Of a stretch of DNA of 40,897 bases, positions 6,079 to 40,897 are shown one piece after another (positions within the stretch are counted from its first letter, which is position 1; every line of letters begins with the position of its first letter). Source of the stretch: a virus; IMG/VR virus record IMGVR_UViG_3300038701_000883, positions 1-40,897 of that record; one strand, 5' to 3'. The notes under the pieces are model-generated. The model saw nothing but the letters and a program-made list of their open reading frames with translations, was not told the DNA's origin and did no database searches. The translations under genes were made by a program, and so were the position numbers.

Positions 6079-6314
6079 GCTTCCCCCTCGCCCGCATCGG
6101 GCTTCTCGTCTGTGGGGCGGCGGGTCCAGGCCACCCATACCGTCCCGACGATGGTGCTAAGGCCGGCGCGCCCCCATATATCCTCTCGCCTGACGTACGG
6201 GCGCCTTACCTCGCCCTTGATGGCCCACTCCCCATCACCAGAAAGCCTCCAGCCGATAGTGCCGCAGGGCATAGCGACAACGTGGAGTGGGCGGCTGTTT
6301 CCTTCGGCGCTCAC
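6075..6314 (-). CDS. Hypothetical β-rich protein
   Basis: 79 residues from ATG 6314, overlapping the upstream stop. The body is β-rich with Gly and Trp (MPCGTIGWRLSGDGEWAIKG). The end, RRPTDEKPDAGEGEA, is encoded by the repeated boundary sequence described separately. Function unknown. Confidence 0.7.
   Translation of the reverse strand: MSAEGNSRPLHVVAMPCGTIGWRLSGDGEWAIKGEVRRPYVRREDIWGRAGLSTIVGTVWVAWTRRPTDEKPDAGEGEA
6090..6102. repeat. Gene-boundary hairpin repeat, copy 1 of 3
   Basis: GCCCGCATCGGGC, a five-pair stem with a CAT loop. Exact copies at 6326-6338 and 6516-6528. Each encodes the end of one gene (PDAG) and lies about ten to fifteen bases before the start of the next, followed on the minus strand by a G/A-rich ribosome site. 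A second, 21-base repeat links the gene ends at 5802-5822 and 6104-6124. Confidence 0.8.
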
Positions 6315-6496
6315 GCTCCCCCCTTGCCCGCATCGGGCTGGTGTGCGTTGGGCTTCCAGATTCGCCGCCCCACATCAAGACCCTTGAGGAAAGCGTCGCT
6401 GCGCCCCGACCACCCATGCAGCCACCCTGCGGCGTAGCTTCCGATTGCGAGCATCACCGCAAGGAACGCGACCTCTGACCCCGTCATCTCACCCAT
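6311..6496 (-). CDS. Small membrane protein
   Basis: 61 residues from ATG 6496; an in-frame ATG at 6487 is the alternative and would leave no overlap. Residues of about 8 to 27 (VAFLAVMLAIGSYAAGWLHG) form one transmembrane segment, followed by a basic, presumably cytoplasmic tail ending NAHQPDAGKGGA. That tail is encoded by the boundary repeat. Role unknown; small inner-membrane proteins in phage accessory blocks sometimes act in superinfection exclusion. Confidence 0.7.
   Translation of the reverse strand: MGEMTGSEVAFLAVMLAIGSYAAGWLHGWSGRSDAFLKGLDVGRRIWKPNAHQPDAGKGGA
6326..6338. repeat. Gene-boundary hairpin repeat, copy 2 of 3
   Basis: Exact copy of the hairpin at 6090-6102, at the end of the small membrane protein gene. 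The flanks (CCCTTG before, TGGTG after) also match copy 3 almost fully. Confidence 0.8.
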
Positions 6497-6944
6497 CGGC
6501 CTGCCCCTCCCCCTCGCCCGCATCGGGCTGGTGCATCGCGTCTCGGAGCGCCACGGCGTCACACAGTGCGTTGTGCGGGATGCGTGAATGCGTCGCAGTG
6601 TCGGGGAGGCTCTGGTCGATTTCGAAAGTCAGGGGAGGCGTGTCTACCCGCTGGCCCGGACCGATAATCAGCGCCTGACAGAAGTGGGCGATGTCTTCCG
6701 GCCAGTCCGCGACAATGTGGCAAGCCGAGTAGCCAGACAGGTAGCGGGCGAGGCTGCGTGCCAGCAGCTCGCGGGACGCCAGCGGCTCCTGATTAAGAAC
6801 GGGCATGACGTGTTGAGCCACCCACGGCCCTGGGCACATGCAAGGCAGCACCTCGTACCACGCAGTACCGTCTTCGCACGCAAGCGCCATTGAAATCAGC
6901 TCGCCACGAAACTCGTTGAACTCGCAATCGACATAGAACTTCAT
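6489..6944 (-). CDS. DEDD-type 3'-5' exonuclease (DnaQ/RNase T fold)
   Basis: 151 residues from ATG 6944. The N-terminal strand FYVDCEF carries the D6/E8 pair, ADWPED around D80 supplies the third acid, and HNALCDA (H124, D129) is the final DEDDh motif. This is the arrangement of the small Rv2179c-like and RNase T-like exonucleases, which remove nucleotides from the 3' end of RNA or DNA with two metal ions. It is coupled by overlap to genes on both sides. Substrate (host RNA, phage DNA ends) cannot be told. The tail HQPDAGEGEG is encoded by the boundary repeat and lies outside the fold. Confidence 0.82.
   Translation of the reverse strand: MKFYVDCEFNEFRGELISMALACEDGTAWYEVLPCMCPGPWVAQHVMPVLNQEPLASRELLARSLARYLSGYSACHIVADWPEDIAHFCQALIIGPGQRVDTPPLTFEIDQSLPDTATHSRIPHNALCDAVALRDAMHQPDAGEGEGQADG
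6516..6528. repeat. Gene-boundary hairpin repeat, copy 3 of 3
   Basis: Exact copy of the hairpin at 6090-6102, at the end of the DEDD exonuclease gene. The exonuclease core ends just before it, so the repeat only adds a tail. Confidence 0.8.
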
Positions 6945-12334: not shown

Positions 12335-12363
12335 TTAATTGAACCGCGTCGTGTTGACTACAA
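12335..12363 (-). promoter_or_regulatory. Candidate leftward promoter
   Basis: On the minus strand: TTGTAG (12358-12363), 17 bases, AATTAA (12335-12340), about 33 bases ahead of ATG 12302. The -10 is weak. It overlaps an imperfect palindrome GGTTAATTGAACC (12333-12345), and the -35 overlaps the rightward -35 by two bases, so the two promoters would compete. Confidence 0.4.
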
Positions 12364-12382
12364 GCACGAACGTGCGTATCTT
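12354..12382 (+). promoter_or_regulatory. Candidate rightward early promoter
   Basis: TTGACT (12354-12359), 17 bases, TATCTT (12377-12382). This is the best σ70-type match in the window, and the spacing is ideal. Transcription would start near 12389, leaving a leader of about 43 bases before ATG 12432. The whole spacer holds a perfect short palindrome, so a bound protein would block RNA polymerase. Confidence 0.6.
12364..12375. promoter_or_regulatory. Operator-like palindrome inside the promoter spacer
   Basis: GCACGAACGTGC: five perfect pairs about a central AA, located between the -35 and -10 of the rightward promoter and next to the leftward -35. A dimeric regulator, most simply the winged-helix product of 12024-12302, could bind here. 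No second exact copy was noticed. Confidence 0.45.
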
Positions 12383-12431
12383 TCGCTGCATCGACACTGA
12401 CGCCGACCCACCACCGACAAGGAAACGCGAC

Positions 12432-12767
12432 ATGCCCGAATTCACCAATGCCGGCGGCTCTCTTGGCCGCTCCATCTACGACGCGCCAGAGCGCAGTGGA
12501 AGCGAAATCGAAGCGGAGCGCATCGAGCGGATCATGGCGCAGGTGTCGCGCCGTGATCTCGAGCGCGCGCTGATCGTCATGCTGTCGGCGGCACGCACGG
12601 CAGAGGGCGAGCAGGGCCGCTTGCACGACACCCTCCGCCCGGTCGTCTCGAAGGCGCTGCAGGACTGCATCGACAACATCGGGAGCGCGCTGGTCGAGGA
12701 GGGAATCGACCAAGTCGCGGAGATCATCGGCGCCGACGCCCTCGACATTCTGGAAGGCGACGCATGA
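12432..12767 (+). CDS. First gene of the rightward unit, helical protein of unknown function
   Basis: 111 residues. ATG 12432 was chosen because AAGGAAA lies just upstream and because the longer frame from 12339 would begin before the promoter. The protein is helical and acidic, with IERIMAQVSRRDLERALIVML in the middle and a C-terminal EEGIDQVAEIIGADALDIL. The stop overlaps the methyltransferase start (ATGA). As the first early product it may be a host-takeover or anti-defence protein, but nothing in the sequence shows this. Confidence 0.75.
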   Translation: MPEFTNAGGSLGRSIYDAPERSGSEIEAERIERIMAQVSRRDLERALIVMLSAARTAEGEQGRLHDTLRPVVSKALQDCIDNIGSALVEEGIDQVAEIIGADALDILEGDA

Positions 12768-13789
12768 CGGCGTACTACAACGAGATCGACCCCTTCGCGG
12801 CTGAGTGGTTGCGGAACCTGATCGACGCAGGGCACATCGCCCCGGGCGTCGTGGACACCAGAAGCATCACAGAGGTGACAGCGGATGACCTTGCCGGATT
12901 CACGCAGTGCCACTTCTTTGCAGGGATCGGTGGATGGAGCCTCGCAGCTCGACTTGCCGGGATTCCCGACGACTACCCCATCTGGACCGCCAGCTGCCCC
13001 TGCCAGCCGTTTTCGGTCGCCGGGCGCCAGCGCGGAGTCGACGACGAGCGCCACCTGTGGCCCGTCTTCCGCGACCTCATCGCGCAGTGCCGACCTGCAG
13101 TCGTCGCTGGAGAGCAGGTTGCGAGCAAGGCTGGCCGGGCGTGGCTGTCCGGTGTACTCGATGAAGTGGAAGGTCTGGGATATGCCGGGGCGGGAGCCGA
13201 TTTGTGCGCTGCGGGCGTCGGCGCCCCGCACATCCGCCAGCGCCTCTACTGGGCGGCTCTCGCCGAACACGTCGGACGGCACGGCGGAGCAGCTGCTGGC
13301 CCGGAAACAGGCCATGGCGGACCGGGGCGTGCAGCAGGGCGTCTCGGTGACGCAGCTGGCGCATCAGGCGCAGATCGCGGGCTGGGTCACGCCAAGCGCC
13401 CGGGACTGGAAGGACACCCCGGGCATGAGCCTGACGGGCACGAACCCGGACGGGACGCTCCGCGCGCGGATCGACCAGCTGCCCCGGCAGGCGGCGATTG
13501 CGGGGTGGCAGACGCCGAAAGTCGCGGACGCGACAGGCGGGCAGACAAGCCGAGGCGGGAAGCGGAAGCACGAGTTGCTGCTGGGGGGCGAGGCGCGAGC
13601 AGCGGCGGCTGGGATGATGTCATCTGGCTCCCTTGCGCCGACGGAAAAGCCCGGCCCATTGAACCCGGCCTTGAGCCGCTGGCTCATGGGGTTCCCGGCC
13701 GCGTGGGACGAGTGCGCGCCTACGGGAACGCCATCGTCCCGGAACTCGCAGCCGAATTCCTGATGGCTGCATTGGAGGAGGACAACTGA
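12764..13789 (+). CDS. DNA C5-cytosine methyltransferase
   Basis: 341 residues. It transfers a methyl group from S-adenosylmethionine to C5 of cytosine, probably shielding phage DNA from restriction. Motif I is HFFAGIGGWSLAARLAG (residues 50-66), motif IV is SCPCQPFS with catalytic C80, motif VI is GEQV where ENV is usual (E117 retained), motif VIII is HIRQRLYW, and motif X is AYGNAIVPELAAEF near the end. Between about residues 165 and 290, where a target recognition domain should be, this frame is a Gly/Ala/Arg/Asp-rich sequence of low complexity. The same DNA in the +1 frame encodes an orderly protein (12885-13763). Ends in TGATG overlap with csrA. Confidence 0.92.
   Translation: MTAYYNEIDPFAAEWLRNLIDAGHIAPGVVDTRSITEVTADDLAGFTQCHFFAGIGGWSLAARLAGIPDDYPIWTASCPCQPFSVAGRQRGVDDERHLWPVFRDLIAQCRPAVVAGEQVASKAGRAWLSGVLDEVEGLGYAGAGADLCAAGVGAPHIRQRLYWAALAEHVGRHGGAAAGPETGHGGPGRAAGRLGDAAGASGADRGLGHAKRPGLEGHPGHEPDGHEPGRDAPRADRPAAPAGGDCGVADAESRGRDRRADKPRREAEARVAAGGRGASSGGWDDVIWLPCADGKARPIEPGLEPLAHGVPGRVGRVRAYGNAIVPELAAEFLMAALEEDN
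12885..13763 (+). CDS. Overprinted +1-frame gene within the methyltransferase gene
   Basis: 292 residues, entirely inside the methyltransferase gene. ATG 12885 has its own Shine-Dalgarno, GAGGTGA, six bases ahead. The protein is not a random shadow: it has SLESRLRARLAG and VYSMKWKVW (residues 74-98), a CALRASAPRTS segment, two W-x-T-P motifs (GWVTPSARDWKD at 167-178, GWQTPKVADATGG at 208-219), DQLPRQA, and an ending LNPALSRWLMGFPAAWDECAPT (part, 259-280) then SSRNSQ. I recall this same series of motifs in proteins of prophages, also beside or within C5-methyltransferase genes. Role unknown; a partner or substitute recognition subunit is an inference. Conserved amino-acid motifs in this frame explain the degenerate middle of the methyltransferase frame. 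Confidence 0.78.
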   Translation: MTLPDSRSATSLQGSVDGASQLDLPGFPTTTPSGPPAAPASRFRSPGASAESTTSATCGPSSATSSRSADLQSSLESRLRARLAGRGCPVYSMKWKVWDMPGREPICALRASAPRTSASASTGRLSPNTSDGTAEQLLARKQAMADRGVQQGVSVTQLAHQAQIAGWVTPSARDWKDTPGMSLTGTNPDGTLRARIDQLPRQAAIAGWQTPKVADATGGQTSRGGKRKHELLLGGEARAAAAGMMSSGSLAPTEKPGPLNPALSRWLMGFPAAWDECAPTGTPSSRNSQPNS

Positions 13790-13971
13790 TGCTGGTACTG
13801 ACCAGGCGAGCAGGCGAAGCCGTGATCGTCACCAACGGCACCGAGGAGCTCACGATCCGCGTGAAGCAGATCAGGGGGAAGCAGGTCCACATGACCTTCG
13901 AGGCACCGAAGAGCATGAAGATCCTGCGCGAAGAGGTCATCGACAGAGGAGATGCGAGCGATGGCGCGTGA
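13789..13971 (+). CDS. csrA: CsrA/RsmA-family RNA-binding regulator
   Basis: 60 residues. CsrA dimers bind GGA motifs in mRNA leaders and alter translation and stability. The match runs end to end: MLVLTRRAGEAVIV (L4 and R6 conserved), a central strand KQIRGKQVHMTFEAP, and REEV (R48, E49) as in the RNA-binding C-terminal strand of the family. The normal length is about 60 residues. Its start overlaps the methyltransferase stop (TGATG) and lies behind GGAGGAGGA, three GGA triplets that double as Shine-Dalgarno, so self-repression is plausible. The phage copy could redirect host carbon metabolism or motility, or time phage translation. Confidence 0.93.
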   Translation: MLVLTRRAGEAVIVTNGTEELTIRVKQIRGKQVHMTFEAPKSMKILREEVIDRGDASDGA

Positions 13972-14974
13972 CGTGTTCGAGAAGCTGGCCGAGCAGGCCG
14001 AAGCGGCGGTGCAGAAAGACCAGGAGGTCCACTTCGACTACGCCGACCCGAAGCAGAACAAGGATGCCCGGTCCTACGTCTACGAGCTCCGCCGGCAGAA
14101 GAGCGAAGTCGAGAAGACCCGGAAGGAGAAGACCGCGTCTTTGCTGGAGCGCAAGCGCGCGATCGACGCTCGGGCGAAAGCCGTGATGGAGCCGCTGCAG
14201 GGCGTGATCGACCGGCACGCCACTGAAATCACCCGGGTCGAGGAGGCCGAGAAAGCGCGCCAGGAGGCGCTGGAAGAAGAGCTGGAGCAGCTGCGCCTCA
14301 TGGGCACGGCGACGGGCGAGGACGGCCGCTTGCTGCCCTCTGGCGAGCTCGAGCGCCGCATTGCGCTGCTCGAGGGACAGAACATCACCGCGGACCGCTT
14401 CGGCGAGGCCGTGGAGGAGGCAGAGAACCTGCAGACCATGGGTCTCGCCGTGCTTCGGCAGGAGATCGAAGTGGCCCGCACGCAGGAAGCCGAGCGCGAG
14501 GAGCTCGACCGGCTGCGCCGCGAGGCTGCCGAGCGCGAGGCCGAGGAGCGCCGGCGACAGGCCCAGCGCGCCGCCGAGGAGGAGCAGCGCGAGCGCGAGC
14601 GCAAGGAGCAGGAAGCCCGCATCGCCCAGCTGGAGCGGGAAGCCAAGGAGCAGCGCCAGCGCGCCGAGCGGGCCGCACAGGCCGAGCGTGAGCGCATCGA
14701 GCAGGAAGCCGCGGCGAAGGCCGCCCGGGAGGAGCAGGAGCGCCAGGAGGCGGCCGCGAAGGCCGAGGCCGAGGAGAAGGCGCGCAAGGACGCCGAAGAG
14801 CGCAGGGCCGCCGTCACGGCGCGCTACAAGGCCGCGAAGGACACCACGCTCATGCAGCTGGAGCACGCCATCGATGATGCTTCCGACATGGATCCGGCGG
14901 ACCTCGCCGAGCACCTGTTCAACCTGATCGACGGGGGCGAGACCTTCTCGCACCTCCACTTCGCCGCCGAGTGA
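13961..14974 (+). CDS. Long coiled-coil protein ahead of the recombination genes
   Basis: 337 residues from ATG 13961, with AGAGGAG eight bases ahead; ATG 13952 overlaps that site and is less likely. The N-terminal 90 residues have a KDARSYVYELRRQKSEVEKTR pattern often seen in phage proteins encoded next to RecT/ERF recombinases. From about residue 90 to 290 the protein is one Glu/Arg/Ala/Gln-rich coiled coil, followed by a short globular C-terminus with TTLMQLEHAIDD. It may serve as scaffold or cofactor for recombination. The repetitive GAG/CGC codons leave long open frames on the other strand. Confidence 0.8.
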   Translation: MARDVFEKLAEQAEAAVQKDQEVHFDYADPKQNKDARSYVYELRRQKSEVEKTRKEKTASLLERKRAIDARAKAVMEPLQGVIDRHATEITRVEEAEKARQEALEEELEQLRLMGTATGEDGRLLPSGELERRIALLEGQNITADRFGEAVEEAENLQTMGLAVLRQEIEVARTQEAEREELDRLRREAAEREAEERRRQAQRAAEEEQRERERKEQEARIAQLEREAKEQRQRAERAAQAERERIEQEAAAKAAREEQERQEAAAKAEAEEKARKDAEERRAAVTARYKAAKDTTLMQLEHAIDDASDMDPADLAEHLFNLIDGGETFSHLHFAAE

Positions 14975-14987
14975 GGAGAGATTGACC

Positions 14988-15785
14988 ATGCAGACCACCG
15001 AAGGGGGCGTGCTCGTTCCCGAAGAGCGCGAGGCGCGCATGCCTGCGCGGCACCAGCACGGCGGAGACCTGGTCAGCGCCATCGCCGTCGCGGCCGCCGA
15101 CCCCCGCACCGACGTGGAGAAGATGCGCGTGCTGCTCGACATGAAGCGAGAGCACGAAGCAGACGAAGCTCGGAAGGCATTCGTGGCAGCGATGGCGGCG
15201 TTCCGCGCGAACCCGCCGAAGATCGAGAAGACCGTGCATGTCTTCTACCAGAGCCAGAAAGGCCCGGTGGATTACTGGCACGCCGACATCGGGGTGATGT
15301 CCGAGAAGATCGGCGAAGCCATGGCGCCCCACGGCCTGTCGTTTCGCTGGACGACGAATCAGGCCGACGGTGGCGTCATCACCGTGACGTGCATCCTGCA
15401 GCACGAGCTCGGGCACTTCGAGGAGACGCGCCTGTTCGCGTCCCCGGACCAGTCGGGCGGAAAGAACAGCATCCAGGCAGTCGGGTCCACCGTGCAGTAC
15501 CTGCGTCGCTACACCCTAGAGTCCGCGTCCGGCGTCGTGGCGCAGTCGGGGAACTTCGGCGACGCCGCATCGCCGGAACCTGCGGAACCAGCGGAACCTG
15601 AGCGCATCACCGAAGAGCAGCGCGCGAACCTGCAGAAACGGCTCGAGGCCTGCGGCGCCGACATCGCCGCCTTCTGCAAGCTCTGCAAGGTCGAAAGCCT
15701 TGCCGACATCACGCAGGCGAAGTGGCCCGGGGTGCTGCAGCGGATCGAGGCGAAGGAGAAGTCGCAGAAGGAGAAGCAGGCATGA
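14988..15785 (+). CDS. erf: ERF-family single-strand annealing protein
   Basis: 265 residues. ERF proteins form rings that anneal complementary single strands, as in P22. ATG 14988 has GAGGAG nine bases ahead. The core of the domain is visible: FVAAMAAFRANPPKIEKT (about residues 60-77), then YWHADIGVMSEKIGEAMAPHGLSF, GVITVTCILQH, and the SIQAVGSTVQYLRRYTL helix typical of the family, ending near residue 180. A Pro/Glu linker and a C-terminal helical tail follow. It is coupled to the exonuclease two genes on, making a RecE/T-like pair. Confidence 0.93.
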   Translation: MQTTEGGVLVPEEREARMPARHQHGGDLVSAIAVAAADPRTDVEKMRVLLDMKREHEADEARKAFVAAMAAFRANPPKIEKTVHVFYQSQKGPVDYWHADIGVMSEKIGEAMAPHGLSFRWTTNQADGGVITVTCILQHELGHFEETRLFASPDQSGGKNSIQAVGSTVQYLRRYTLESASGVVAQSGNFGDAASPEPAEPAEPERITEEQRANLQKRLEACGADIAAFCKLCKVESLADITQAKWPGVLQRIEAKEKSQKEKQA

Positions 15786-15913: not shown

Positions 15914-16525
15914 ATGATGGAGCAGCAGACTGCAGAGTGGTACGCGGCCCGGGTCGGGAAGTTCACGTCCAGCCGGATGACCGACCTGAAGTCGGACCGC
16001 TACCGCTGGCAGCTGGCCCTAGAGCGTCTCACGGGGCGCTCGCACGAGCCGCAGTACCAGTCGCGCGAGATGCAGTGGGGCAACGAGCACGAGGCCGACG
16101 CCGCTGATCTGTACTCGTTCCTGACCGACAGAGGGCTCGAGAAGGTTGGCTTCATCGACCACCCGACCATGCCGCGGTGCGGCGCCAGCCCGGATCGGCT
16201 CGTCGTGGGCGAGAAGGGCATGGTCGAGATCAAGTGCCCCGCGTCGCACACCCATGGCGCCTACCTGCTGGGCGCGCCGATCGATCGCGGCTACGTCCTG
16301 CAGATGCAGTGGCAGATGGAGGTGGCGAAGCGAGACTGGTGCGACTGGGTCTCCTACGACCCGCGCTTCGAGGGCGGCGACATCCCGCCCGGATCCGAGA
16401 TCATCATCCGCCGGGTCGAACGTGACGCGGCGTTGATACGGACCCTGCGGTCCGACGTGAGGAAGGCCGACAAGGCCGTTCAGGACCTGGTGCTCCAGGT
16501 CAGCCAGAGAGGAGAGGCTGCATGA
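15914..16525 (+). CDS. YqaJ/lambda-type 5'-3' exonuclease
   Basis: 203 residues (ATG 15914 or the adjacent ATG 15917). It digests one strand of double-stranded ends so ERF can anneal the other. The PD-(D/E)XK nuclease core is clear: GNEHE (E60), CGASPDRL (D94), VEIKCP (E105, K107), and the LQMQWQMEV helix that follows in the YqaJ family. AGGGTGA lies about seven bases ahead of the start. The stop overlaps the start of the next gene (ATGA). Confidence 0.93.
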   Translation: MMEQQTAEWYAARVGKFTSSRMTDLKSDRYRWQLALERLTGRSHEPQYQSREMQWGNEHEADAADLYSFLTDRGLEKVGFIDHPTMPRCGASPDRLVVGEKGMVEIKCPASHTHGAYLLGAPIDRGYVLQMQWQMEVAKRDWCDWVSYDPRFEGGDIPPGSEIIIRRVERDAALIRTLRSDVRKADKAVQDLVLQVSQRGEAA

Positions 16526-28966: not shown

Positions 28967-29374
28967 TCACGCTCCGATTGCGTTGATGATGGAGAGCTCT
29001 CGCTTCGGGCGAGCCGGTCGGCTCATGGGCCGCGCTGCTGTGACCTGCTTCGGCATGAGCGCGGGGTGGTTGATCTGCAGCCACTTCATGAATCGGTCCT
29101 TCTCGCCGCCCTCGTTGCGCGCCCACACGTCGTAGCCTATCCGGCGCTGCGTGAGGTAGTCGATCAGCAGGCTCTGCGGGATCGACCCGCGGTAGGTCCA
29201 CTCGCGCGGATTGCCGCGAGACGGCGCACCGTTGACCTTCGCGTCCATGAAAGCGACGTGGCTCTTGATCGCCTCCACGTTCTGACGGTGGCCGCGATAC
29301 GCGACCCCGTCCTCGTAGCCGAAGTAGCGCGCGATGTCGCCGCTGTGGCGCGTGACGCGCTTGATGTCAGCCAT
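28967..29374 (-). CDS. Hypothetical head/neck region protein
   Basis: 135 residues. Contains VEAIKSHVAFMDAKVNG and an SLLIDYLTQRRIGYDVW helix, with a basic Pro/Arg-rich tail ending in SIINAIGA. Eight-base overlap with the sulfotransferase stop and one base from the adaptor. Position suggests a neck or assembly protein. No family recognised. Confidence 0.7.
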   Translation of the reverse strand: MADIKRVTRHSGDIARYFGYEDGVAYRGHRQNVEAIKSHVAFMDAKVNGAPSRGNPREWTYRGSIPQSLLIDYLTQRRIGYDVWARNEGGEKDRFMKWLQINHPALMPKQVTAARPMSRPARPKRELSIINAIGA

Positions 29375-30281
29375 CGGCCGCCTCCTTCATGCGCTGCCGA
29401 GCCTCCTCGGCCGCCGCATCCTGCGCGCTGCGCTGCGCGTCCACGAACGCCTGGTCGGCCTCTGCGGGCGGCTCGAGGTCTTCCTCGCGCACGCTGTTCT
29501 TCGCGCCGTTGGGCCGGGTCTCTTCGGTGGCCTCCGCGGTCACGGTGTTGGCGGCCTTCGCCACCTGGTCAGCGGCTTCCTCGGCCGTGGGCTCCTTCAC
29601 CTTCTTCGGGCGGCCCCGGCGCTTCCCCTCTGACCCCTGGGTCCTTTCCGGTTCCGGCGGGTCGAAGGGGTAGGACAGCATCTCGAAGTCCTGCGCGTAC
29701 CGGGCGCGGACGAGCGTGACGAGCTCGGGCGTCCACTTCGGCGGCTCGGCCTTCGACGGGTTCAGGCGCCGCAGAGGCTGCACGATGGTCCCGCAGTGCG
29801 CGCGGATCTGCGTCGTCAGGTCTTCCCAGCGGTCCTCGATGGTCTCGAGCGGCACGAGGATGTCCCAGCAGGGCTTGCCCTCGTAGTGCCAGTCCCAGGT
29901 CTGCAGGCGCACATGCGGGTCGGTGCCGGCGTTGTCGCGCGTGGCGGCCACGGCGTGGATGAAGGCGTCGAAGTCCATGCCGTGCTTCACGCCGTGCTTC
30001 AGGAGGTTCGGGTGAGAGCGGTCGATCACCTTGTCCCGCCAGCAGGACACGAGACGGTCGAACGGGTTCCGACAGATGGCGATCCGCAGGTAGCCGCGGT
30101 TGCCGGCGTCGAAGGCGTCTAGGGGGCCGATCCTCGGGATGGCGCTGCGGCGCAGGCTCGACTGGTTGTGGACGCCCAGCAGCGGCGCCAAGGCGTCGGA
30201 GACGCTTGTCGTGCCGCACTTGGCGGCCTGTAGCACGATGATCTTCGAGTCGCGGAAGTGCAGGTTCTGGGATGCGGGCAT
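29367..30281 (-). CDS. PAPS-dependent sulfotransferase with AT-hook C-terminal extension
   Basis: 304 residues. The first 206 residues form a carbohydrate-type sulfotransferase, which moves sulfate from PAPS to a sugar. The 5'-phosphosulfate loop is QAAKCGTTSVSDAL (18-31). The 3'-phosphate loop is ICRNPFDRLVSCWRDKV (69-85), and the domain ends RYAQDFEMLSYPF. All are at the usual spacing. An unrelated tail of about 95 residues follows: GKRRGRPKKV (219-228), a textbook AT-hook, then an Ala/Glu-rich helix. The gene sits between coat and adaptor in the head cluster, which is unusual. Substrate unknown (host surface glycan, or the virion). No PAPS synthesis gene is present, so the donor would be the host's. 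Confidence 0.85.
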   Translation of the reverse strand: MPASQNLHFRDSKIIVLQAAKCGTTSVSDALAPLLGVHNQSSLRRSAIPRIGPLDAFDAGNRGYLRIAICRNPFDRLVSCWRDKVIDRSHPNLLKHGVKHGMDFDAFIHAVAATRDNAGTDPHVRLQTWDWHYEGKPCWDILVPLETIEDRWEDLTTQIRAHCGTIVQPLRRLNPSKAEPPKWTPELVTLVRARYAQDFEMLSYPFDPPEPERTQGSEGKRRGRPKKVKEPTAEEAADQVAKAANTVTAEATEETRPNGAKNSVREEDLEPPAEADQAFVDAQRSAQDAAAEEARQRMKEAADG

Positions 30282-38424: not shown

Positions 38425-39552
38425 TTAAAACGCGAGCCGCGCGCCGCCAGTACGATCCGAATAGCTTACGGATGGAATCGAATTTACGCAGAAGGCGCCC
38501 GATGCGTCGTTTATTTTTCCGTTGCCACCGAAACGAGTAGTAAGCGAAAGAGCAGTTGCTGCACTATGCTGGTCCGCAAGATACGTCGTAGAGGAACCTC
38601 CTGTATTATCTCCGGAAAGAAAGTAAGCTCCGGTGTTGAGAATGTTCCGAATGAATCCAGTCGCGGTCGGAAACGAAGATGAAAGCAGCGTGTAGCCAGT
38701 CGTGGTGTTGTCCGCAAAGTCAGTGTAATCATTCGTGACGTGGACGTTCCCGGCACTGCCTTGGTTTACGTTGATACCATCGCACCAATTCCAGCAGTTG
38801 CCGTACCAGTTTTCGATGCCTCGGTAGGACATGAATGCCGTGTCGCGAGAGGCACTTGACGCTCCGCTGGTGGCGTCCGTGGATGCGTTGCCCAGAGAGT
38901 TGCTCTTGCCTGCCACGGAATGCGGGCTGTCGGTTTGGTTGCTGGAGCCAGACGGATAACCCGACGTTACATCGGTATTTCCATCGCCCAAATTCGCTTG
39001 CGTGTTGAAGTCTGCATACTCCACCAGATACAGCATCTGGATAGCAGACCACAGGGCAAAGTCGAGCTGATGCCAACCCGCCCCTACGTTTTCGGCAAGC
39101 GTCCGGCACTCGTCTCGCGTTACCCCGACCAGCGGATAGATTCCTGACACGGATGCGAGCTTGTCATTCGACATGTCGAGATTGCTGGTCATGTCGTTGA
39201 GGTTCAGCCCCGACTTATAGTTGCCGTCCGTCGCGTCCAAATAGCAGGCGTCATAAGCCCCGATGTAGCGGTAGTTGACCTCCGATCCCGCCTTCGTGAA
39301 AGCGGGATGCAGCGTGAAACCGGAAAGCGCGAGTTTCGACACCTGCCAAGTGTTCAGCGTACCGACGAGGGTGTGCTTGTAGTAGAACTTCGGAATCTCA
39401 ACCATGACGTTTCCGTCCGTGCCGTCGAGCACAGATGACGTCACGCCGTCAGCCTTGAGCGTACTGTCAGAGGCGTCAAGGTAATAGTTCACGCTGCCGT
39501 CCGCGTTCAGCACGCAGCGTTTCATGTCGAGCCAAGGCCTAGAGTTGCTCAT
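38425..39552 (-). CDS. Receptor-binding tail protein with C-type-lectin/FGE-like C-terminal domain, full copy
   Basis: 375 residues. The N-terminal part (SRPWLDMKRCVLNADGSVNYY, then MVEIPKFYYKH) is the standard beginning of a large group of phage tail proteins. From about residue 115 a formylglycine-generating-enzyme or C-type-lectin-like fold follows, with WHQLDFALWSAIQMLYLVEY, AFMSYRGIENWYGNCWNWCDG and a final GGARLAF. This fold serves phages as a binding surface and is the one diversified by retroelements elsewhere, but no reverse transcriptase or template repeat is present. GC content is clearly below the neighbours, and codon use differs (many Asn, Thr, Tyr), suggesting recent exchange. 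Likely the main host-range determinant. Confidence 0.85.
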   Translation of the reverse strand: MSNSRPWLDMKRCVLNADGSVNYYLDASDSTLKADGVTSSVLDGTDGNVMVEIPKFYYKHTLVGTLNTWQVSKLALSGFTLHPAFTKAGSEVNYRYIGAYDACYLDATDGNYKSGLNLNDMTSNLDMSNDKLASVSGIYPLVGVTRDECRTLAENVGAGWHQLDFALWSAIQMLYLVEYADFNTQANLGDGNTDVTSGYPSGSSNQTDSPHSVAGKSNSLGNASTDATSGASSASRDTAFMSYRGIENWYGNCWNWCDGINVNQGSAGNVHVTNDYTDFADNTTTGYTLLSSSFPTATGFIRNILNTGAYFLSGDNTGGSSTTYLADQHSAATALSLTTRFGGNGKINDASGAFCVNSIPSVSYSDRTGGARLAF

Positions 39553-40779
39553 TTATTTGTCCCATTCATAGCTCTGGCTCCGGGAACCAGCCTTGGGCAT
39601 CTGCCTCGGCATCGGTGAGTGCGTTGGCTTGCAGCGTTGGCGGCAGAAGTTCGGCCACGGTCAGGGTGCTATCCCGCGCGGCTTCTAGAACGGCGGCGAG
39701 TTCATCCTGCTCTTGCTGCGGGATCGGCAGTGCCGAGACGAATGCAGCGATGTCGGCATCGGGCGCGACGCGCTGGGTATAGGTGTCGGGGATCGAGAGG
39801 GCCACGTCGCCGGACTGCGGGTGGATGATCCAGCCCACCGCGTAGCGGGTCGTGCCCGTGGCGGTCGGAACAGCCAGCGCCCAGAGCGCGGCGCTCATGG
39901 CCTGCGCGTAGTCGATGGTGGGGTGGGAGAGGGAGAGAATCATGACGCAGTCCCCGAGATGCCATAGCGGTCCAGCATGGACTGCTCAATCGCCACCCGA
40001 TCTGTGGCGTCGCCTACTACGATGACCTCTGCGAGTTGGTCGCTTAAGGCAGCAGTGATAACGCTGCCAGAAATATAAGCTCCGACCGTTAGTGGAGCCG
40101 TTGTATCGTTCAGCGTACTAAAACTGTCGTCACGGATTACGGTTGGCGACGTGACAGCCACGCCGTCCAGATACAACGTCAGCGCGCTAGATTCCCACTT
40201 GAACGCCACGACATGAAAACCGGATGAAGAAACCCCCGATCTGTAAGCCTTGAGGTTTGAAGCGGTGCCGTCCTCGCTCAATGCCACATTTAAGCGGTTA
40301 TCAAATTCCCCAATCACCCAGCTGCGTTCGTCAATTCCTGAATTATATGATCCTGCCGCCGTAGATAGGCTGGCATTGTTAGCAAACTCAACCACCACCG
40401 CGACATATAGGCTCGTGCGATTACCGCCGACCGGCGACGCTGCCTCCAGAATGCTGGTGCCGCCGAAATCAGGCGCAGGCTCTCCGTTGATGTTCTCGAC
40501 GCTGCCGCTCGTAACGATCTGCGGCTGCTCGGCTGCGGTCGCTTGATCAACGTCAAGCGCAGAGCCGGACTGATCATAGATAGTGGCGACGAAACCGTTA
40601 TTGGCGCCCGTAAATGTGGTAAGCGCGCTCTGATCCAGCTCGCTTGCGTCGTTGAACCCGATGTCCTGCTCAGTGTTGTCGGAGGACCGCCGCACGCGCA
40701 CACCGTCGCCCGTGTAAGCAGAGCGCAGCTGGAACGCCGTCGAGTACGCTGCAAGGACGTTGGAGACGCCATCGAGGGG
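38820..40779. repeat. Terminal repeat, right copy (matches 1-1960)
   Basis: See the left copy. Beyond 40779 the sequence turns into a different version of the adhesin stalk, so the contig ends in a variable region, as expected when an assembler meets two strains. Confidence 0.95.
39566..39943 (-). CDS. Small protein between adhesin and receptor-binding protein, copy 2
   Basis: Identical to 747-1124 at offset 38819; see that entry. It represents the same gene seen from the other end of the contig. Confidence 0.75.
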   Translation of the reverse strand: MILSLSHPTIDYAQAMSAALWALAVPTATGTTRYAVGWIIHPQSGDVALSIPDTYTQRVAPDADIAAFVSALPIPQQEQDELAAVLEAARDSTLTVAELLPPTLQANALTDAEADAQGWFPEPEL

Positions 40780-40897
40780 AAGACCCCCAGCAATCTGCCC
40801 ACTCGCCGCACTAGCCGCCGAGTCGGTGCCGTTGGCGTTGGTTTCGGTTTGCACTGCCCGGACGTACTCGTCCTCATCGGCACTGACGAGCGTGTAC
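39940..40897 (-). CDS. Tail adhesin, second allele, 5' end beyond the window
   Basis: About 319 residues of the C-terminal part, open at the window end. From LPLDGVSNV onward it equals the protein of 1121-2674. Upstream the two differ: here the end of an Ig-like repeat (VQTETNANGTDSAASAASGQ) runs into the C-terminal domain after only AGG. In the other allele about 30 extra residues (ITAVSGAFSEVTWDSS and on) lie between them. This is a different stalk on the same binding domain. The junction is at 40779/40780. Confidence 0.85.
   Translation of the reverse strand, partial: YTLVSADEDEYVRAVQTETNANGTDSAASAASGQIAGGLPLDGVSNVLAAYSTAFQLRSAYTGDGVRVRRSSDNTEQDIGFNDASELDQSALTTFTGANNGFVATIYDQSGSALDVDQATAAEQPQIVTSGSVENINGEPAPDFGGTSILEAASPVGGNRTSLYVAVVVEFANNASLSTAAGSYNSGIDERSWVIGEFDNRLNVALSEDGTASNLKAYRSGVSSSGFHVVAFKWESSALTLYLDGVAVTSPTVIRDDSFSTLNDTTAPLTVGAYISGSVITAALSDQLAEVIVVGDATDRVAIEQSMLDRYGISGTAS

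Follow-up and report, generated by a model that had tools for sequence, protein, structure and literature searches.

Known phage CsrA proteins and the gene described here

Phage copies of csrA are already known. A list from 2020 comprises thirty csrA-bearing phages, some of which infect hosts without a chromosomal csrA (PMC7366521), and a survey of 2021 covered the RsmA homologues of phages in GenBank and IMG/VR and proposed an anti-CRISPR role, RsmA of Serratia being a repressor of CRISPR-Cas (PMC8450108). The gene lies upstream of the capsid gene in phage CSP3 (PMC10269572), and one virion peptide of CsrA was reported for phage JC1 (PMC9144972). A direct test of csrA in a phage was met in a single paper, where knockdown of the coliphage homologue PTXU04_00028 shrinks plaques and its expression in E. 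coli is among those reported to be toxic or to interfere with infection (PMC11879866). The csrA gene of E. coli is autoregulated (PMC7652899); autoregulation of a phage csrA was not met as a topic in the titles or abstract openings searched. Here we describe a further, divergent copy, found in the IMG/VR virus record IMGVR_UViG_3300038701_000883, whose positions 1 to 40,897 (40,897 nucleotides) are hereafter called the window. The gene is the open reading frame (ORF) at 13789-13971 on the plus strand, with an ATG start and a product of 60 residues. Taken together, the data make it likely that this is a divergent CsrA encoded by an accessory gene of an early DNA-modification and recombination operon, which would be made early and re-set host translation.

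Family membership and divergence of the phage CsrA

The product matches the Pfam family PF02599 (CsrA) over residues 1-53 (E = 2.9e-15), its 56.4 bits exceeding the curated cut-off of 27, the PHROG family phrog_9500 'CsrA-like regulator' (E = 9.7e-12) and solved CsrA/RsmA chains (E about 5e-7). An end-to-end CsrA match of 60 residues, claimed by the initial annotation of this DNA, is thus borne out by these three comparisons and by the predicted fold. Of the residues it had listed as kept, L4 and R6 are indeed present, together with R7 and the hydrophobic I45 and V50, but the key arginine is R47 and not R48. R47 aligns with R44 of E. coli CsrA, which is critical for RNA binding, as is L4 (PMC7652899). 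Both L4 and R47 are invariant across an alignment of 74 rows, in which the window protein was joined by 73 CsrA sequences translated from retrieved loci, and which was also the input of an AlphaFold2 (AF2) monomer model (mean predicted local distance difference test score 82, predicted template modelling score 0.62). In the CsrA fold one helix accompanies five strands, of which the first and the fifth pair with the partner subunit. This fold is recognizable in the monomer model, which has the helix and the central three strands and does not form the peripheral ones. A Foldseek search with this model returned CsrA, RsmA or RsmE entries of the PDB as the 14 best rows (template modelling scores of 0.49-0.72 by query length), including 5dmb_D, titled only 'translational regulator', which we take to be a CsrA. 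The sequence comparisons and the predicted fold therefore support a genuine member of the CsrA family.

Judged by the searches, this protein is unusually divergent and lies far from every other CsrA found. Among 50,697 phage records only 11 matches were obtained, every one below 60% identity, and the search of IMG/VR gave a single relative (L002) at 34%. The search of GTDB genomes gave 130 relatives, of which the best 80 were kept; none of these 80 loci was matched by an enterobacterial AlaS query. Three of the 11 phage-record matches look like bacterial chromosome contigs, AGRM01000002.1 and CAKLQH020000034.1 with alaS upstream of csrA, and CAKLQF020000006.1 by the same label. The former two (L013 and L012, respectively) would inflate counts of phage csrA genes.

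The phage genome

The csrA gene shares its contig with structural and lysis genes, since PHROG matches were obtained for terminase, portal, major capsid, scaffold, DNA ejection protein, tail fibre and endolysin, and the gene is thus phage-encoded. The PHROG scan, which covered 39 proteins of the window, named neither an integrase nor a repressor. The sequence of bases 1-1906 recurs without change at 38820-40725, followed by two mismatches and then by divergence over the last ~118 bases. These redundant ends fit a complete genome, about 38.8 kb long, that was assembled past its own start, so that the genes at either end represent one set that is counted twice; the tip at ~40780-40897 looks like an assembly artefact.

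Related capsid genes were present in 39 records, several of them fragments, and none of these harbors csrA, which indicates an accessory gene. The metagenome viral contigs L254-L280, whose capsid proteins are 51-70% identical to that of the window, belong to a phage group that is without csrA in the records searched. Across viral contigs the gene is common, as 343 IMG/VR stretches were confirmed with one E. coli-type query.

The csrA operon and its neighbours

The genes and signals around csrA are as follows:

12339 to 12767, plus strand: first ORF of the putative early operon, 142 residues from TTG, taken from the ORF list; no Pfam or PHROG match
12354 to 12382, plus strand: promoter-like TTGACT-17-TATCTT upstream of the operon; consensus match only, one found and a mean of 0.3 in shuffles
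12764 to 13789, plus strand: C5-cytosine DNA methyltransferase (Dcm-like), 341 residues; Pfam PF00145 (3.1e-12), phrog_363 (3.6e-80)
13789 to 13971, plus strand: csrA, 60 residues, with a 3-residue insertion, T36 and L46; Pfam, PHROG, alignment and predicted fold
13952 to 14974, plus strand: 340-residue ORF with charged coiled-coil-like repeats and its own GAGGAG ribosome site; phrog_1376 (4.2e-18, unknown function)
14982 to 15785, plus strand: ERF-family single-strand annealing protein; Pfam PF04404 (6.1e-10), phrog_155 (9.7e-26)
15914 to 16525, plus strand: YqaJ/RecE-like recombination exonuclease; Pfam PF09588 (9.6e-23), phrog_434 (2e-20)

For the 142-residue ORF, the in-frame ATG at 12432, which follows AAGGA, seems the likelier start. 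The TGA of the methyltransferase gene overlaps the csrA ATG (TGATG), and the 3' end of csrA overlaps the 340-residue ORF by 20 nucleotides. The joint methyltransferase-csrA message assumed by the initial annotation is therefore real as an arrangement, and translational coupling of the two genes is likely from this overlap. The 142- and 340-residue ORFs had no match among the other loci compared, nor did the latter among the phage records, and the IMG/VR search with the ERF query yielded no relative. An Rfam scan of the window returned nothing at gathering scores, and hence no known antagonist RNA of the CsrB/RsmZ type. Of eight proteins compared with PADLOC, the methyltransferase was the only one with matches.

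Recombination exonucleases (RecE-like or other) lie beside csrA in three viral contigs (L107, L099 and L153), as named from 10 hand-picked long neighbours that are not a random sample, and an ERF gene lies beside csrA in L127. Overall, viral contigs show diverse csrA neighbours: 118 of 183 selected ORFs were scanned and the commonest PHROG matched three of them, so that no fixed csrA module is seen.

Two further features of the genome lie outside the operon. Beside the capsid gene, the ORF at 29367-30281 on the minus strand has a weak match to galactose-3-O-sulfotransferase (phrog_3347, 6.5e-07) and is a possible cargo gene. In addition, an element of 25 nucleotides occurs three times on the minus strand (6079-6103, 6315-6339 and 6505-6529) with 0-2 mismatches, where 0 copies are expected. 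It comprises the hairpin GCCCGATGCGGGC followed by a G-rich stretch resembling a ribosome site, and its first two copies run into the ATG (6078) and GTG (6314) starts of successive ORFs, by which it appears to be a repeated cassette of hairpin and ribosome site.

The csrA leader

Three elements of the leader bear on a possible control of csrA by its own product:

13741 to 13743, plus strand: second, upstream GGA, 33 nucleotides ahead of the first ribosome-site GGA; from the sequence
13769 to 13792, plus strand: possible hairpin with stem 13769-13775/13786-13792, loop AGGAGGACAA and the start codon in the stem; fold not above chance
13774 to 13782, plus strand: GGAGGAGGA with AGGAGG, the csrA Shine-Dalgarno and candidate single CsrA site; from the sequence

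GGAGGAGGA is present ahead of csrA, as had been annotated, and is found in a single copy in the whole window when both strands are searched. The string as such lies within chance, since at least one copy turned up in 43 of 100 shuffles of the window that preserved dinucleotides (mean 0.62). Its 3' end is 6 nucleotides ahead of the ATG, and AGGAGG is a canonical Shine-Dalgarno match at a normal distance. Sites of the AGGAGG class and 2-5 GGAs per 60 nucleotides occur in several of the 44 gene starts of the window. The CsrA dimer bridges sites 10-63 nucleotides apart (PMC7652899), so that the three GGAs at 3-nucleotide steps in GGAGGAGGA amount to one dimer site. The spacing of 33 nucleotides to the second GGA falls inside this range, although a GGA at that distance is expected by chance given a density of 15.7 GGA per kb on the plus strand. 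Once the Shine-Dalgarno match is removed, one extra GGA is left in this leader, as in many genes of the window.

In a fold of 46 nucleotides, AGGAGGACAA is in the loop and the csrA AUG in the stem, at an average energy (z 0.04). Scores as high are reached by 77 of 500 shuffles in which the GGAs are kept, and by the stricter loop count the leader has P 0.13, where the shuffles average 0.25. The hairpin is gone in folds of 70-96 nucleotides, which take in 50-60 nucleotides of upstream sequence. For a check of conservation, no leader closely related to this one was found. The self-regulation through GGAGGAGGA put forward by the initial annotation is thus not supported over a strong Shine-Dalgarno, and for this phage it is possible without being favoured by the leader beyond that ribosome site. 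GGAGGAGGA is probably first of all the site that gives csrA strong translation, at which some binding of CsrA is possible and not needed.

Leaders of csrA genes in viral contigs

For viral contigs, csrA leaders were set against those of other ORFs at the same loci, the starts of the control genes being assigned heuristically. Of 86 csrA leaders, 74 were usable and 12 were dropped (missing start, short upstream sequence or duplication); the set includes some of seven alaS-adjacent and probably chromosomal contigs. Without the Shine-Dalgarno match, csrA leaders carry 0.86 GGA each (n = 71) and controls 0.57 (n = 442; permutation p 0.0016). Among distinct leaders, a GGA lies in a hairpin loop (P > 0.5) in 12 of 56 csrA leaders, the window leader itself being counted among the 12, against 25 of 359 controls (Fisher 0.0015) and 9.6% in shuffles. 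This looser definition of the loop is partly post hoc, since it was written after a lone pair had been seen to hide the hairpin of the window, and an earlier, stricter count gave 8/56 against 24/359 (Fisher 0.051). A first run in which similar leaders had not been removed gave 18% for csrA and 7% for controls.

A textbook CsrA-type hairpin lies exactly over the csrA Shine-Dalgarno in one viral contig (L103, AAGCC-AAGGA-GGCUU), and hairpins of the same type (GACC-AAGGA-GGUC) lie over it in L098, L106 and L112. This class-wide excess and the textbook sites indicate that autoregulation of phage csrA genes merits testing, although the window is not the best example: the leader comparison makes such a test possible, best in the contigs with textbook sites.

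A recurrent csrA leader with two GGAs was also observed in L133, L147, L148, L149, L152, L153 and L156, consisting of GUGUGGAGU or AUGUGGAGU and, further on, GUAUGGGA, which directly precedes the AUG and replaces the usual Shine-Dalgarno. From its sequence, this leader could be a conserved, CsrA-controlled ribosome site.

Possible function of the phage CsrA

Under the explanation that we favour, CsrA would be made early, its translation coupled to that of the methyltransferase. The homodimer would bind GGA near ribosome sites by two faces, built from strands 1 and 5 with L4, R6, R7 and R47, and at high dose may compete with a host Csr/Rsm protein or add to it. The translation of host messages for metabolism, surface and possibly defence genes would thereby be re-set, phage messages being secondary targets. 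Such a host-directed action is plausible by analogy with the published phage work. Several features weigh against it. The protein has T36 where 70 of the 74 aligned rows have G, and L46, adjoining the key arginine, where 68 have H. It also has a 3-residue insertion after residue 14 that no other row shares, an insertion of similar size being found in Vibrio phage VvAW1 and Xanthomonas phage PhiXhv-12, whose proteins are both outside this alignment. Because of these differences, its RNA affinity or specificity may differ. In a tree of 40 rows its branch is very long (6.91) and without supported kin, a position that 60 residues could hardly resolve. Finally, early expression of the operon, while likely, is deduced from gene content. 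The same long branch and the substitutions at near-invariant columns would suit a CsrA that has decayed or been repurposed and no longer binds GGA-containing RNA; with an open frame, a strong ribosome site, a predicted CsrA fold and L4, R6, R7, R47, I45 and V50 all retained, we regard this as very unlikely.

The remaining alternatives concern the targets of a functional protein. CsrA could bind GGAGGAGGA, with the GGA 33 nucleotides upstream, and shut off its own translation, possibly after the ribosomes of the methyltransferase have left. The overlap of GGAGGAGGA with the Shine-Dalgarno, the bridgeable distance of the second GGA, the short-range fold with AGGAGGA in the loop and AUG in the stem, the GGA-richer and more often looped leaders of viral csrA genes as a class and the precedent of E. 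coli (PMC7652899) all speak for it. However, this leader behaves as expected by chance in the shuffles and loses its hairpin in longer folds, its single additional GGA is shared by many window genes, the stricter class-wide count is weaker, and the site is traversed by ribosomes that complete the methyltransferase, so that autoregulation appears doubtful here. The broader proposal that phage csrA genes are self-limiting switches operated by hairpin loops that expose GGA over the ribosome site in their leaders, in this case tied stop-to-start to the methyltransferase, with early CsrA arresting its own translation and possibly that of the downstream recombination genes, would likewise seem improbable. 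Alternatively, CsrA might mainly control phage messages in trans, in the early operon or the late genes, as an internal timing device. Looped GGAs (P > 0.5) were found in 4 of 34 GGA-bearing leaders among 45 examined (16522 on the plus strand; 7555, 10502 and 28965 on the minus strand), but this is not clearly above the control of 24/359 and the starts of many of those ORFs are uncertain, and we consider such a role unlikely. CsrA could also counter host defence, for instance by lowering CRISPR-Cas translation, paired for this purpose with the adjoining methyltransferase, which could protect phage DNA. This pairing proved not to be recurrent: csrA is absent from all 80 IMG/VR loci with the closest methyltransferases, within the stretches covered, and those encoded near csrA in L122 and L115 are larger and show no overlap with it. 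Such a counter-defence role is thus quite unlikely.

Comparison with known systems

With E. coli CsrA and the Pseudomonas proteins RsmA and RsmE (PF02599), the phage protein shares the end-to-end match, the predicted fold, L4, R6, R7 and the equivalent of R44, and differs by its phage operon context. It is about 39% identical to enterobacterial CsrA, from which it is set apart by the insertion, T in place of G and L in place of H. The CsrA proteins of P. aeruginosa phages such as F116, phi297 and H66 (RsmM type), reported as ~55-63% identical to E. coli CsrA, are nearer to the host proteins than that of the window (PMC7366521). PTXU04_00028 offers a CsrA homologue of an isolated E. coli phage with a measured effect (PMC11879866), and the Lessievirus (Bcep22-like) csrA, such as JC1 gp47, that of a podovirus of similar guanine plus cytosine content (65.4%, against 65.9% in the window). 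The Lessievirus gene lies between the portal and capsid genes, whereas that of the window lies in a recombination operon (PMC9144972). Among the best named phage matches is the CsrA-like regulator of Vibrio phage VvAW1 (YP_007518368), which is 42% identical. Its gene overlaps an upstream DEDD exonuclease gene in a region devoted to recombination and replication, with an HNH endonuclease downstream; unlike in the window, no methyltransferase or ERF gene is annotated in the stretch shown. By its divergence, its csrA-less relatives and its place in a recombination operon, the copy described here extends the known sequence range of CsrA and reinforces a recurring link of phage csrA with recombination genes.
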